Shown here in pieces: positions 5,866 through 62,555 of a stretch of DNA of 64,000 nt; within the stretch, counting starts at the first letter, position 1; every line of letters starts with the position of its first letter. Position numbers and translations under genes: made by a program. The DNA is from an uncultured Phycisphaerae bacterium (GTDB lineage: Bacteria > Planctomycetota > Phycisphaerae > UBA1845 > Fen-1342). The notes under the pieces were generated by a model. That model did no database searches and was not told the origin of the DNA. It saw only the letters and a list, made by a program, of their open reading frames with translations. The stretch spans positions 62,001 to 126,000 of the forward strand of contig CALGJV010000006.1 of the NCBI GenBank assembly GCA_937928595.1, written 5' to 3'.

Positions 5866-7329
5866 TCAGCTCCGCGCCTCCTCCCAGGCCTCGGCCAACG
5901 CGGTCGGCAGCACCTCGATATCCGCGACCTCGAGCGTGCGGACATCCAGGACAAGCATGTCGTCCCGCAGGCGAGCGATGACCGGTACTTCTCGCTGTCG
6001 GAGCTCGGCGGCGAGCCGTTCCACGGAGACGTCGGGCACCCGCACCTGCACCAGCCAGGTCGCGAACGGAATTGTCGCCAGCGATCCCCCCCCGGCCTCG
6101 CTCACGCCCTCTGTCGCCCGGACCGTCGCCTCGGGCAGCGCGTCCCGCAGCCCGCGCGCGAGCCCATCCGCCAGGCGCGCCAACTCCGCCGCCGGCCGCG
6201 ACAGCAAACGCCAGCTCGGCACCCGCCGAGCGGCGACGGCCGGATCGCGATAGAGCCGCAGGGTCGCCTCCAGTGCGGCCAGCGTCAGCTTGTCGGGACG
6301 CAGCGCGCGGGTAAGCGGGTTGCGCCGCACGGCGGCCACGAGGTCCGCGCGACCGAGGATGACGCCCGCCTGCGGACCGCCCAGCAGCTTGTCGCCGCTG
6401 AACAGCGCCAGCCCGGCGCCGGCCGCAAGACTCTCCGTGGCGCACGGCTCGTCCCAGTGCCGTGGGCCGCGATTGCCGACGGGCGCCGCGGGTGGGCTCT
6501 CCGGCCACGGCAGGTCGCGGTGGAGCAGGCCGCTGCCGAGGTCATCGACGGCCAGCACGCCGTGCCGTTGCGCGAGCGCCGCGAGCGCACCGATGGGCGG
6601 CGCTGCGGCGAAGCCGACCACCCGGTAGTTGCTGGGGTGAACGTGCAGCAGGAGCGCGGTGCGATCGCTCAGGGCACGCTCGTAGTCCTCGATCCGGGTG
6701 CGGTTCGTCGTGCCGACCTCGACCAGCCGACACCGCGCCGCGGCCATGATGTCCGGCAGGCGGTACTGGCCGCCGATCTCGACGAGCTGGCCGCGCGACA
6801 CGAGTACGTCGCGGTCGGTCGCCAGCGTGTTGAGCACGAGGTACGTGGCCCCCGCGTTGTTGTTGACGACCAGCGCGTCTTCGGCGCCGGTGAGCTCGCG
6901 CAGCAGATCGCGGGCATGGTCGTAGCGGTCGCCGCGCTCCCCGGTGGCGAGGTCGAGCTCGAGGTTGCAGTACCCGGCCGCCGCCTCGCTGATCGCCGCG
7001 AGCGCTTCGTCGGCCAGCGGTGCGCGGCCCAGCCCCGTGTGCAGCACGATGCCGGTCGCGTTAATCACGCGCCGCAGGTGCGGGCGGCTGCGCTCCTGGA
7101 GGCACCGGCGAATGTCGAGGGCCAGCGCGGGAGGATCGCAAGCGACCGCTTCGCCGGCGAGGAGCCGGCGGCGGCGCTCCTCGAGCACGGCCCGCACGAC
7201 GGCGACGACCTCGGCGCGCGGGTAGTCGCCGGGCAAGCCGGCGACCGTCGGGTGGTTCAGCACATGGTCGACCGACGGGAGGCGTCGCAGGGCGTCGTGC
7301 GGAGCGGACGGGGGGCCGGACGTGTCCAT
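5866..7329 (-). CDS. selA: L-seryl-tRNA(Sec) selenium transferase (selenocysteine synthase)
   Basis: PLP enzyme that converts Ser-tRNA(Sec) to Sec-tRNA(Sec) using selenophosphate. The 487-residue protein has the family layout: an N-terminal domain beginning with LRRLPSVDHVLNHP, then the core INATGIVLHTGLGRAPL, NNNAGATYLVLNTLA and the PLP-lysine block SGDKLLGGPQAGVILG. The ATG at 7329 fits the family start; upstream in-frame sequence is Arg-rich junk. Its presence means the genome very likely makes selenoproteins. selB, selC and selD are not in the window, so they must lie elsewhere. This bears directly on the in-frame TGA gene at 61749. Confidence 0.95.
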   Translation of the reverse strand: MDTSGPPSAPHDALRRLPSVDHVLNHPTVAGLPGDYPRAEVVAVVRAVLEERRRRLLAGEAVACDPPALALDIRRCLQERSRPHLRRVINATGIVLHTGLGRAPLADEALAAISEAAAGYCNLELDLATGERGDRYDHARDLLRELTGAEDALVVNNNAGATYLVLNTLATDRDVLVSRGQLVEIGGQYRLPDIMAAARCRLVEVGTTNRTRIEDYERALSDRTALLLHVHPSNYRVVGFAAAPPIGALAALAQRHGVLAVDDLGSGLLHRDLPWPESPPAAPVGNRGPRHWDEPCATESLAAGAGLALFSGDKLLGGPQAGVILGRADLVAAVRRNPLTRALRPDKLTLAALEATLRLYRDPAVAARRVPSWRLLSRPAAELARLADGLARGLRDALPEATVRATEGVSEAGGGSLATIPFATWLVQVRVPDVSVERLAAELRQREVPVIARLRDDMLVLDVRTLEVADIEVLPTALAEAWEEARS

Positions 7330-7429
7330 GCGCGGGATGATAATCAGCGGCACGCTCCGCGCGTACACGCGGCCGGCGGGCCGGCGCGTCACCCCACGGC
7401 TTCCGGCCGTCCGGGCCCCGACCGGCCGG

Positions 7430-8341
7430 TCACATCCACAGCCACCGCAGCGGGTCCGCCCAGGACTCCGCCGCCAACAGCGCCGGCCACAGCGCCGGCC
7501 CCGCCACGATGTACGCGATGTTCGCACCGGTCACGAAGTCGTACGCGATCGAGCCCCGCGGTCGTCGCCAGAGCTGGAGACGCCCGCGCCAGCCCGGCAC
7601 GGGCCCGCGCGGCGGGGCCGGTCGGCCGGCGTCCAGCGCCGCCACCGCCGCGTACGCGTACGTCAGCCGCCGCCAGACCGTGAAGAAGCACCCCACCGCC
7701 ATCTGCCACAGCACGGCCGGCACGTGCCCGCAGGTGCAGCCGATCAGGATGGCCGCGCAGCGCTCGCCCCGCAGCCAGTAGCCCACGGAGCAGTCGGGAA
7801 TGATCTCCTCGGCCCGAGCCTTGATGTAGCTGATGAGCACGCCGTTGCACAGCGCGACCACGGCCAGCAGTTGATAGGTCACGCTGGGCGTCGGCAGCAG
7901 CGCGAAATGCAGGAAGCACCCCGTGTAGATCGCCATGTCGCTGAACCGGTCGACCGACGAGTCGAGCACGGCGCCGGCGCGCGTGCCCATCCGCCCCACG
8001 CGGGCCACCGCGCCGTCGAGCATGTCGCACGCGCCGGCGAGGAGCAGAAACAGCGCGGCCAGCGCCGGCCACCCGCTCGCCGGCCCGGGGCCGGTGCGGA
8101 AGTACCACACCTGGTGCGAAGCCCCCCGCATCAGGCAGTACGCTGCGCCGCAGGTCAGCACGAACCCGGCGATCGTAATGCGGTTCGGCGTGGCCCCGTA
8201 GCGAATCAGCCCGCGCGCCACACGGTCGCGGGCCCGGCCGATGGCGCGGCCGATCGACAGGCTGGCGCCGCCCGCCTCACCCGCTTCGCGCAGCGCCTGG
8301 AAGTCCTTCGCGACCGAGGGCGATGCGGAGTCGTGGTCCAT
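7430..8341 (-). CDS. CDP-alcohol phosphatidyltransferase family membrane protein
   Basis: 303-residue integral membrane enzyme of phospholipid head-group synthesis. It has a complete CDP-alcohol phosphotransferase motif, D-x2-DG-x2-AR-x8-G-x3-D-x3-D, visible as DMLDGAVARVGRMGTRAGAVLDSSVDRFSD in two adjoining stretches, with several hydrophobic segments after it. The N-terminal segment TPNRITIAGFVL is also typical of the family. Substrate could be glycerol phosphate, inositol phosphate or another alcohol; the sequence does not decide. The ATG at 8341 is preferred to one four codons upstream. It is followed by selA after 100 bases and preceded by a membrane-protein gene, 33 bases away. Confidence 0.85.
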   Translation of the reverse strand: MDHDSASPSVAKDFQALREAGEAGGASLSIGRAIGRARDRVARGLIRYGATPNRITIAGFVLTCGAAYCLMRGASHQVWYFRTGPGPASGWPALAALFLLLAGACDMLDGAVARVGRMGTRAGAVLDSSVDRFSDMAIYTGCFLHFALLPTPSVTYQLLAVVALCNGVLISYIKARAEEIIPDCSVGYWLRGERCAAILIGCTCGHVPAVLWQMAVGCFFTVWRRLTYAYAAVAALDAGRPAPPRGPVPGWRGRLQLWRRPRGSIAYDFVTGANIAYIVAGPALWPALLAAESWADPLRWLWM

Positions 8342-31963: not shown

Positions 31964-33625
31964 TCAACCGCCCGGCAGCGGATCCACAGCCATCGTTCCA
32001 ACCAGGCGACGCCGGTTCAGATATCCGTAGAGGACAATCGCCGCCATGGCGACCACGGTCAGCCCGCCGATCGCCGTTAGGATCAGGTTCACCGCGACCG
32101 CCAGCCACGCCCCCGGCCGCACGAGCCACAGCCAGAGCGTGTTGCCCAGCAGCGCCACCATCGTCAGCGGCAGCAGCACCTGCACGCAGGCGTACATCAC
32201 CTGGTCGAGGCGGATGCGGGGCAACGTCCAGCGCAGCCAGAGCTGCACGAAGAAGAAGAAGAAACCCTTGAGCACGAACCAGATCGGCCCGCTGTACAGC
32301 ACGCCGTGAACGGCCCGCTGCCACAGCGGCCCGTCGGCCCACGCAGCGCCCCAGCTGGCCGGCAGCGGCGAGTACCACGCGCCGAAGAACAGCACGCTGG
32401 CCAGGGCCGCGACGGCGAACATCTCGGCATACTCGGCGAAGAAGAACAGCGCCCAGCGGAACCCGCTGTATTCGGTCAGGTAGCCGGCGACCAGCTCGCT
32501 TTCGGCCTCGGGCAGGTCGAATGGAGCTCGCTTGCAGCTGGCGAGGGTCGCCACGAAGAAGACGATCGCCGCGATGAACGTGAACGGATTCGCGAACGCC
32601 AGCCAGGTGTGGAAGCCGCCCGACTGCGCCTCGCCGATGGCCGTCAGCCGCAGCGTCCCGAGCGTCATGATCGGGACCAGCAGCGCGAAGCCCAGCGGAA
32701 TCTCGTAAGAGATCATCTGGCAGGCCTCGCGCATCGCGCCGAGCATGCTCCACTTGTTGTTCGACGCCCAGCCTGCCAGCAGCACGCCCAGCACCCCCAC
32801 GCCCAGCATCGCGAAGATGAAGATCAGCCCGACCTCAAGGTCCCGCGCGACCCACGCCGCGCTGAACGGCAGCGCGATGAACAGGCACATCGCCGGAATG
32901 AACGCCACGTACGGCGCCAGCCGGAACAGTGCCCGGTCCGCCCCGGCGATGAAGATGTCTTCCTTCTGGAGGAGCTTCAGCCCGTCGGCCAGCGACTGCG
33001 CCCAGCCGTGCCAGCCGCCCACGCGCATCGGCCCCAGTCGGCTCTGCATGCGCCCGGCCACCTTGCGCTCCCACCAGATCCCGAACATCGCGACGAGCGA
33101 CACGAACCCGACCACCCCCACCACCGCGAGCACGTCGCGCGTGAGCTGAAACTGGAGCGGCCAAAGCGCCAGCGCCGCCAGGTACGCCGGGCCGCGCGCA
33201 GCCGCCGCGTTGCCGGTCAGTGCCGCTTCGAACTGCGCCACGCTGACGGCCGCGCCCGGGTGATCCGCCTTGATGCCGTCGACCCGCTCGTAGAGCAGCG
33301 CCGGGATCCACGCGAGGACCACAATCCCCACGACCCCGCCCAGAAAGATCGGCAGCGCCAGCGTCAGCAGCACCCGCCCCACCAGCGCCGCGAAACGGAT
33401 GACAAAGGCCGCCAGCAGGCAACACGCGCCCGTCAGCCCCGCCAGCACCACGCCCCCGACCGCCGCCGCGTACCCCACCCCCTGGGCCACCCCGGCCACG
33501 AACCCGAAGCCCACCGCCGCCGCCAGCAGCGCCACGCCCGCGATGACGAAGCCCCGCAGTGCCAGGGCCTTGTGGGCCGCGGTGAAACGAGGTCGCAGGG
33601 CATCCTCTGCACTGAACTTGTTCAT
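31964..33625 (-). CDS. nuoH: NADH-quinone oxidoreductase subunit H with long N-terminal membrane extension
   Basis: 553 residues against the usual 320-430. The quinone-site core begins near residue 170, GIWWERKVAGRMQSRLGPMRVG, then WAQSLADGLKLLQKEDI, CKRAPFDLPEAESELVAGYLTEYSG and ALFFFAEYAEMF. All charged residues of the quinone channel appear present. The first about 150 residues hold three or four additional membrane helices (ALRGFVIAGVALLAAAVGFGFV, VGGVVLAGLTGACCLLAAFV, LLTLALPIFLGGVVGIVVL) and a soluble loop. ATG at 33625. The extension is in frame and shares composition with the rest, so it is a real fusion or lineage-specific addition. Confidence 0.93.
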   Translation of the reverse strand: MNKFSAEDALRPRFTAAHKALALRGFVIAGVALLAAAVGFGFVAGVAQGVGYAAAVGGVVLAGLTGACCLLAAFVIRFAALVGRVLLTLALPIFLGGVVGIVVLAWIPALLYERVDGIKADHPGAAVSVAQFEAALTGNAAAARGPAYLAALALWPLQFQLTRDVLAVVGVVGFVSLVAMFGIWWERKVAGRMQSRLGPMRVGGWHGWAQSLADGLKLLQKEDIFIAGADRALFRLAPYVAFIPAMCLFIALPFSAAWVARDLEVGLIFIFAMLGVGVLGVLLAGWASNNKWSMLGAMREACQMISYEIPLGFALLVPIMTLGTLRLTAIGEAQSGGFHTWLAFANPFTFIAAIVFFVATLASCKRAPFDLPEAESELVAGYLTEYSGFRWALFFFAEYAEMFAVAALASVLFFGAWYSPLPASWGAAWADGPLWQRAVHGVLYSGPIWFVLKGFFFFFVQLWLRWTLPRIRLDQVMYACVQVLLPLTMVALLGNTLWLWLVRPGAWLAVAVNLILTAIGGLTVVAMAAIVLYGYLNRRRLVGTMAVDPLPGG

Positions 33626-60757: not shown

Positions 60758-60794
60758 CACGGTGCGGCGTACGCAGACGCCGCCCTGATCCAGG
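60758..60794 (+). repeat. 37-nt direct repeat, copy 1
   Basis: Identical to 60824-60860 by eye. It contains an inverted repeat GCGGCGT/ACGCCGC around a six-base loop and ends CTGATCCAGG. The copies are 66 bases apart start to start. Confidence 0.8.
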
Positions 60795-60823: not shown

Positions 60824-60860
60824 CACGGTGCGGCGTACGCAGACGCCGCCCTGATCCAGG
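60824..60860 (+). repeat. 37-nt direct repeat, copy 2, joins the ThuA ribosome site
   Basis: Second identical copy. Its last bases with the next two form AGGAG, seven bases before the GTG start of the ThuA-like gene, so the repeat supplies part of the ribosome binding site. The internal 7-bp hairpin lies upstream of the site. Confidence 0.8.
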
Positions 60861-60869
60861 AGTACCGCC

Positions 60870-61616
60870 GTGAGTGAGAAACCGATCCGCGTACTGGTCT
60901 GGGACGAGAACCCGGGGCACGCACCCAAGGAAGTGTATCCGCACGGCATCCGCGGCGCGGTCGCGGAGGGGCTGGCCGAGTTCGGCCGCGACGGCGTGCA
61001 AGTGCGGACCGCCCACCTCGACGATCCGGAGCAGGGGCTGGCCGCGGAAACGCTCGCCGAGACGGACGTGCTCGTCTGGTGGGCGCATGTCCGCCACCAC
61101 CTCGTGGATGACGCCGTCATCGCCCGCGTCGTCGAGCGTGTCCACAAGCACGGCCTCGGATTCGTCGCGTTGCACTCGGCGCATTACTCCAAGGCGCTCA
61201 AACGAATCCTGAACTGCACCGGGCACCTCAAGGGCGGCTGGCGCGAGGACGACCAGCCGGAGGAAATCCGGGTCTGCGCCCCGCGGCACCCGATTGCCCT
61301 CGGCGTGCGGGATTTCACGCTCCCGCGCGAGGAGATGTACGGCGGCCCCTTCGACGTGCCGCCGCCGGCCGTCGTCGTACTCCAGTCGTTTTTCCCCGCC
61401 GGCGGCGAGTACTTCCCCTCGGGCCTTTGCTGGACCGTCGGCGACGGCATCGACCCCGCATTCGAGTCCGGCCCCGGCCGCGGCATCGGCCAGGGCGAGG
61501 GTCTCGGCCGTGTCTTCTATTTCCGCCCCGGCCACGAAACGGCCCCTACCTACCACAACCCGGACGTGCGGCGGGTTCTCTACAACGCCGTCCGCTGGGC
61601 GGCGAAACGGACGTAG
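60870..61616 (+). CDS. ThuA-like (trehalose utilisation) domain protein
   Basis: 248 residues, GTG start at 60870 with AGGAG seven bases upstream. The class I glutamine-amidotransferase-like fold of ThuA is seen as RVLVWDENPGHAPKEVYPHGI, ETDVLVWWAHVRHHLVDD, LGFVALHSAHYSKALKRIL, HPIALGVRDFTLPREEMYGGPF, and the C-terminal GRVFYFRPGHETAPTYHNPDVRRVLYNAVRW. ThuA proteins are linked to trehalose and sugar metabolism; many planctomycete copies are of unknown role. The leader is unusual (37-nt repeats). Confidence 0.88.
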   Translation: MSEKPIRVLVWDENPGHAPKEVYPHGIRGAVAEGLAEFGRDGVQVRTAHLDDPEQGLAAETLAETDVLVWWAHVRHHLVDDAVIARVVERVHKHGLGFVALHSAHYSKALKRILNCTGHLKGGWREDDQPEEIRVCAPRHPIALGVRDFTLPREEMYGGPFDVPPPAVVVLQSFFPAGGEYFPSGLCWTVGDGIDPAFESGPGRGIGQGEGLGRVFYFRPGHETAPTYHNPDVRRVLYNAVRWAAKRT

Positions 61617-61699: not shown

Positions 61700-61748
61700 C
61701 TGAACTGGTGCATTCTTGAAACAGCCGGCCCCCGGAGGATGCGGCCGT

Positions 61749-62555
61749 ATGCGAGCAGCAATGATGGCGACGCTGGCGGCACTGGCGACCCTGCCGGTGG
61801 CCGCGCGGGCAACGCAGAGCTTCGGGTTCTTCTTCGCGTTCGGCGCCTGCGGCTGAGGGACGCAGCAGGTCGGCGCCTGGTCAGGCGCCACGGACGGATA
61901 CGACCCGGAGTTCGACTTCCTGCTCACGAGCTGGGGCGGGCTCGGCTATGCCAGCGTCTATCACGTGAAGTCGGCCGAAGGCGACTGGGTCGGCCCCACG
62001 GGCTTCTATCGCACCGACATGCGCGGGTTGCCGGCCCCCGACGGAGCGATCACGATCGCGCCCATACACGTATGGGCCGATCCGATTTACTCCGAGGATG
62101 TCATGTCGTTCGCGCTCGCGCCGAACACGATCCACGTGCCCCCGGCCAACCGGCGGTACCGCCTGACGTTGATCTACGTGCCTACCGAGGTCGTGGGCGC
62201 GCCGCCAGTCGGGACCCACTGGTCGCTTTCGCCGACGAAGGAGTTCAAGGTCGACTTGCCGGTCTTCCGCACGGAGGACGGCACCCAGGGCTACCAGTTC
62301 GCGCTCAGCGTTTCGGCGGAGGTGCCACCGTGTGACGGGCAACTCCGCGGCGATGCCAACTGCGACGGGTTCGTGACGATCGATGATGTCGATCTGTTCG
62401 TCGCCGCGCTGGGCGGCGAGGAGGCCTGGCGGATCGCGATCGGCGGCCCCGTGGCGTGCCGGTACCTGTGCGTGAACGATCCGAACGGCGACGGTACGGT
62501 CGACTTCAACGATATCGAGGCATTCCTGGCGTGCCTGGCCAACGCGGGCTCCTGA
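61749..62555 (+). CDS. Candidate secreted selenoprotein: dockerin-like protein with in-frame TGA at codon 36
   Basis: One frame runs from ATG 61749 to the stop at 62555 with a single internal TGA at 61854-61856. Before it lie a signal peptide (RAAMMATLAALATLPVAARA) and FGFFFAFGACG; after it GTQQVGAWSGATDGYDPEF continues without a break. The 268-residue product ends with dockerin-like loops, GDANCDGFVTIDDVDLFVAAL and DPNGDGTVDFNDIEAFLACL, which are clearly part of a real secreted protein like those at 37650 and 50945. Reading TGA as Sec gives the motif ACGU. A hairpin follows the TGA. If it is not Sec, the gene is a pseudogene or the TGA is a TGG error. GGAGG is 12 bases upstream of the ATG. 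Confidence 0.55.
61854..61856 (+). other. In-frame TGA, putative selenocysteine codon 36
   Basis: TGA in the frame of 61749-62555, context GGC-TGA-GGG. The same frame carries signal peptide before and coding sequence after. Trp (TGG) is the simplest non-Sec alternative. Confidence 0.45.
61872..61889 (+). promoter_or_regulatory. SECIS-like hairpin downstream of the in-frame TGA
   Basis: Perfect inverted repeat GGCGCCTG (61872-61879) and CAGGCGCC (61882-61889), best drawn as a seven-pair stem with the tetraloop GGTC (61879-61882). The apical loop is 22 bases after the TGA, and G is in its first two positions, as the general bacterial SECIS model asks. The bulged U of fdhF is absent. A lower GTC/GAC pairing (61869-61871 with 61893-61895) is possible with a three-base bulge. 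Confidence 0.45.

Follow-up and report, generated by a model that had tools for sequence, protein, structure and literature searches.

What does the TGA in the middle of the open reading frame at 61749-62555 (plus strand) stand for? The 64,000-nucleotide stretch of DNA analysed here, which we refer to as the window, contains a frame that is interrupted by this one in-frame TGA, at codon 36 (61854-61856), and that ends on a terminal TGA at 62553-62555. The original prediction of a single in-frame TGA followed by an open frame could be read directly from the sequence. Its description of the site as ACG-TGA-G was right about the TGA, but ACG are the amino-acid letters of the preceding residues (A-C-G) and not a codon. 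With the TGA read as selenocysteine (Sec), the gene encodes 268 aa, as supported by its translation and by homologues that match on both sides of the TGA. We are highly confident in the explanation as a whole, namely that this is a selenoprotein of an undescribed family, with UGA as Sec, exported and most likely active in redox chemistry.

The layout of the gene is as follows. A probable Shine-Dalgarno sequence, GGAGG (61734-61738), lies about 10 nt before the ATG at 61749. The first 63 nucleotides (61749-61811) encode, judging by the sequence, an N-terminal signal peptide (MRAAMMATLAALATLPVAARA) that would direct export of the product; the homologues begin with signal-like segments as well. 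A conserved Sec domain at 61812-62330 was delimited by alignment A1 and an AlphaFold2 model, and a dockerin-like or EF-hand-like module at 62331-62552 forms the C-terminus. Near the start of the Sec domain, TGC GGC TGA (61848-61856) spells a putative redox motif, Cys-Gly-Sec (C-G-U).

Downstream of the TGA, the hairpin at 61872-61889 (GGCGCCT-GGTC-AGGCGCC) forms a perfect 7-bp stem with the apical loop GGUC (61879-61882) 22 nt after the TGA, in agreement with the coordinates and the spacing predicted for it. Bacterial SECIS elements have a loop of 3-9 nt, a stem of 4-16 bp and a G in the first two loop positions, lie 16-37 nt after the UGA and have a minimum free energy of at most -7.5 (PMC13188914). 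The hairpin in the window agrees with all of these constraints (loop 4, stem 7, GG, 22 nt, -12.6 kcal/mol). The local fold at the site was no more stable than shuffled sequences (z -0.45). Neither strand of the window contains another perfect stem of 7 bp that encloses GGTC. Nevertheless, a laxer scan, which applied the published constraints for bacterial SECIS elements and demanded at least 7 pairs, found some hairpin of this type after 39 of the 633 plus-strand TGAs in the window. An Rfam scan of the window at gathering thresholds detected no SECIS and one tRNA-Val, and a permissive Rfam scan of 61820-61930 gave chance matches only. In a single sequence, the hairpin together with the TGA is weak evidence by itself, suggestive only; it becomes significant because it is conserved in relatives.

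These relatives came from a search of 114 genomes of the same order with the Sec domain (residues 22-194) as query, which returned 15 convincing homologues (E 1e-45 to 5e-17, identity 32-49%) and thereby a family of 16 sequences. At the aligned codon, twelve of the 15 (identity 37-49%) have TGA, each as its one in-frame TGA, and three have TGC or TGT for Cys (L024, L028, L031); none has TGG. Homologues with Cys or Sec at codon 36 and not Trp are what the original prediction had named as support. A Cys one or two residues before the site is invariant, in the form C-x-U/C in 14 sequences and C-U in two (L019, L023), so that all 16 carry a Cys before the site and Cys or Sec at it. Conservation extends upstream and downstream of the TGA, with dN < dS on either side. 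In a tree from which the Sec and hairpin columns were left out, and whose branch support is modest, the Cys forms are scattered and three separate Sec/Cys changes are needed. Profile searches extended to the class (397 genomes) and the phylum (392 genomes) brought up no member beyond the order, so that within the reach of those samples the family is narrow. Viral contigs yielded no relatives. One further candidate from a scan of genome contigs, L043, was discarded as a chance match with no open frame.

The hairpin is present in all 13 TGA forms (the window gene and the twelve homologues) and its GGTC loop is invariant, as had been expected of homologues. The distance from TGA to loop is 22 nt in twelve of them; in L029, with two additional codons, it is 28 nt. 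Double compensatory changes were observed at four of the seven stem pairs, with compensated stems such as AGCGTCT-GGTC-AGACGCT (L022), GGCGTCA-GGTC-TGACGCC (L023) and GGCGTTC-GGTC-GAACGCC (L029). Paired cells amounted to 95.6%, compared to 31-55% in a control with the partner slid, and none of 500 shuffles reached the covariation score. The SECIS constraints on spacing and loop were satisfied in 13 of 13 TGA forms and that on energy in 11; the hairpins of L020 and L025 have one mismatch and are, taken alone, weaker than -7.5 kcal/mol.

Codon usage in the loop points in the same direction. In 11 of the 13 TGA forms the loop encodes its Ser by TCA, while TCA makes up only 7 of 185 Ser codons elsewhere (4 of 107 in the window genes, 3 of 78 in other parts of the domain); the binomial probability of 2e-14 ignores relatedness and is indicative only. 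The remaining two forms use TCT and TCG, precisely the codons that maintain pairing with AGG and CGG. When a covariance model of the hairpin (R1) was run over the 114 genomes, the E-values of the 13 TGA forms ranged from 3e-12 to 4e-9, and that of the next best hit was 0.011. The high scores follow from the model having been built from these 13; what it does tell is that no other sequence comes near them and that the Cys homologues fail: L024 obtained 10.5 bits, L031 8 bits and L028 nothing at the site, whereas three TGA forms scored in that run reached 48-58 bits. Furthermore, the W/R-S residues at the loop are replaced by V-P, H-P and R-T in the Cys forms, indicating that the nucleotides and not the residues are held. 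Comparison of the sequences shows UGA retained where the hairpin is retained and swapped for Cys where the hairpin was lost. The SECIS assignment is thus backed by the fold, the covariation and the covariance-model search.

SelB carries Sec-tRNA to a UGA that is followed by such a hairpin, and the machinery for this is encoded in the genome from which the window stems (G000). The gene for selenocysteine synthase, selA, was found in the window as predicted (5866-7527, minus strand; 415 bits with Pfam SelA, 510 bits with TIGR00474). The genes sought elsewhere in the genome were all present: selB on contig 14 (318 bits), selC, the tRNA-SeC with anticodon tca, on contig 17 and selD (L075) on contig 22 (130752-131675). 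This selD itself has a TGA at the usual Sec position (CAG-U-AGK), an independent support for Sec decoding in the same genome. The RNA downstream of the selD TGA contained no obvious GGUC hairpin, and SelB of this genome may therefore accept different loops. In the window, ARAGORN called a tRNA at 33483-33578 (minus strand) with an undetermined two-base anticodon; it has no Rfam support and is probably a false call.

SelA was detected in 14 of the 16 genomes that harbor the family, and the other two, which are incomplete, have tRNA-Sec and SelB. A tRNA-Sec was not found among the best 150 candidates per genome in the draft assemblies G430, G432, G443, G445 and G399, nor in a search near selA or selB where the model had none, and the best candidates inspected with ARAGORN in the tRNA-Sec-negative genomes were tRNA-Ser, -Leu or -Arg. 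All five have SelA and four have SelB. Assembly gaps, limits of the search or a divergent tRNA-Sec may account for this gap; given the restriction to 150 candidates and the draft state of the assemblies, it is no refutation. Altogether, homologues with TGA or Cys, a conserved hairpin and a complete pathway uphold the selenoprotein reading of the original prediction.

Among the other explanations for the TGA, the one that survives best, and which we still regard as very improbable, is that the stop is read through or that TGA has been reassigned to a standard amino acid, for instance Trp or Cys, without involvement of selenium and with the hairpin promoting readthrough. A hairpin after a stop codon can indeed favor readthrough, and four genomes with a TGA form lack a detected tRNA-Sec (G430, G432, G443 and G445; SelA in all, SelB in three). 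This explanation, however, is at odds with TGA terminating other genes, and this very gene, and with the presence of RF2. Against it also stand the Cys found in its place in homologues, the Cys forms being without the hairpin, the match to bacterial SECIS constraints and the SelA, SelB, SelD and tRNA-Sec encoded in the genome.

We give practically no credence to the idea that the TGA stands in place of TGG (Trp), either through an error of sequencing or through a recent nonsense mutation, in a gene for a normal exported protein or in a pseudogene. TGG is only one base away from TGA, and the 39 of 633 illustrate that TGAs with a GC-rich hairpin close by are no rarity in the window, but the twelve homologues with TGA at the same codon come from separate genomes and the rest have Cys, never Trp. 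The TGA being present in thirteen genomes excludes a sequencing error in practice, and the domain contains no second stop. That the TGA is a true stop, separating a short peptide from a 196-aa frame starting with the existing GTG at 61965, as standard gene callers would annotate it, is hardly credible, since this start would forfeit the signal peptide and about 36 codons after the TGA, including the conserved GxWSxATDxxD, while conservation of the domain extends to either side of the TGA, its predicted fold draws strands from both sides and the Cys homologues are single unbroken frames.

Returning to the selenoprotein, the Sec domain was modeled by AlphaFold2 as an all-beta sandwich of 11 strands without any helix (pLDDT 89, pTM 0.87). 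Structural matches, with a Foldseek E of 0.057 at best and a VIA Z of at most 4.9, were mainly of cupin or jelly-roll types and not interpretable. A sequence search of the PDB gave nothing credible. The 16 Sec domains had no match in NCBIfam at E<=1 and none above cut-off in Pfam. The prokaryotic selenoprotein families or subfamilies on record number about 119, and most of those characterized have a thioredoxin-like fold (PMC13188914); no entry in that 2026 inventory (Table 1 of the same paper) fits the Sec domain. The protein family and its Sec domain appear to be new, while the decoding mechanism is known. PMC13188914 cites a later groundwater MAG survey that reports unvalidated candidates (Deng et al. 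2026, Cell Rep), and the family may already be among these.

The C-terminus differs between members. A dockerin-like tail was recognized by eye and by sub-threshold matches in the window protein, L019, L022, L024, L028 and L030. With the dockerin models tested (PF00404 and NF041540), the window protein scored 18.7 bits against dockerin_GC (cut-off 29), and L019 and L029 scored 21.2 and 20.3 bits against Dockerin_1 (cut-off 22.9). In the window protein, the module (residues ~195-265) is further delimited by self-matches in the genome and a sub-threshold EF-hand match. Such a dockerin-like C-terminal module occurs in about 70 places of G000. The PEP-CTERM model (TIGR02595, cut-off 16) was matched by L018 (16.8 bits), L025 (16.1 bits) and L027 (16.8 bits); L017, L020, L021 and L023, and more loosely L031, have a PEP-CTERM-like tail by eye only. 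The members from G430 and G445, genomes of a single genus, continue beyond the Sec domain with a dockerin-like stretch and, after it, a multihaem cytochrome c. This fusion extends over 1423-3318 in L029, with nine CXXCH; in the G445 assembly a frame change breaks it in two (L086, 3819-5700). The label of a secreted dockerin-type protein holds for the C-terminus of the window protein only; the Sec domain is a module in its own right, joined in other members to PEP-CTERM-like tails or a multihaem cytochrome.

The neighborhoods of the family members revealed no conserved partner. A ThuA-family gene (60870-61613) lies directly upstream of the window gene, and a homologue of it adjoins the member in G404 (L083), the sole near neighbor that is shared. 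Just upstream of the ThuA-like gene, a perfect 37-nt direct repeat (60758-60794 and 60824-60860) was observed, the copies being 66 nt apart.

Our proposal for the function is as follows. UGA at codon 36 would be decoded as Sec by SelB and tRNA-Sec, guided by the hairpin at 61872-61889, a step for which the comparative evidence speaks. The exported product would expose, outside the cytoplasm, a beta-sandwich bearing Cys-Gly-Sec near its N-terminus. This motif would most likely constitute a redox center of the selenenylsulfide/dithiol type that may reduce a peroxide, a disulfide or a metal, or hand on electrons. The C-terminal modules, dockerin-like here and PEP-CTERM-like in others, would attach the protein outside the membrane. 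The redox role is suggested by the motif and the fusion, and extracytoplasmic electron transfer is our best guess because the domain precedes a multihaem cytochrome c in two relatives. To the broader idea that these order-restricted, exported beta-sandwich selenoproteins with interchangeable C-termini form an extracytoplasmic electron-transfer or reductase unit able to feed multihaem cytochromes, we would give even chances. The family adds an all-beta, exported and module-anchored type from a little-studied order to the selenoprotein catalog. It is probably mis-annotated in its genomes, since gene calling would truncate the gene or start it downstream. Its Sec forms, Cys forms and cytochrome fusions provide direct handles on the role of selenium at the cell surface.

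The combination of a signal peptide with such a C-terminal module is shared with PEP-CTERM or dockerin-anchored surface proteins; a keyword search of one literature collection returned no paper linking these to selenocysteine. With the SECIS-SelB system of E. coli fdhF and fdnG, the locus has in common an in-frame UGA, a hairpin within the coding region soon after it, GG at the start of the loop and the presence of SelA, SelB, SelC and SelD. The E. coli fdhF SECIS loop is GGUC as well, but its stem has a bulged U, which the 7-bp stem here, with its loop 22 nt after the UGA, does not have. The protein, moreover, has no relationship to formate dehydrogenase. Multihaem cytochrome selenoproteins (ExtKL, NF040886; octahaem, TIGR04315) are likewise exported redox proteins with Sec, and two members here are fused to a cytochrome; most, however, have no haem module, and the cytochrome part matches NF040886 at an E-value of 0.09 only. 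The UshA-like PCGU selenoprotein (NF041198; COG0737, CxU, PMC2398784) also has the Cys-Gly-Sec motif, and its C-terminal profile (401-510) matches the cytochrome part of L029 with 121 bits, under the cut-off of 275 bits. Neither the Sec domain nor the window protein matches NF041198, and the part in common is thus the cytochrome and not the Sec domain. Together with the cytochrome fusions, this likeness to the UshA-like PCGU C-terminus suggests electron transfer outside the cytoplasm. Finally, thioredoxin-fold selenoproteins have CxxU or UxxC motifs, whereas the family described here has CxU or CU in a domain predicted to be all-beta.
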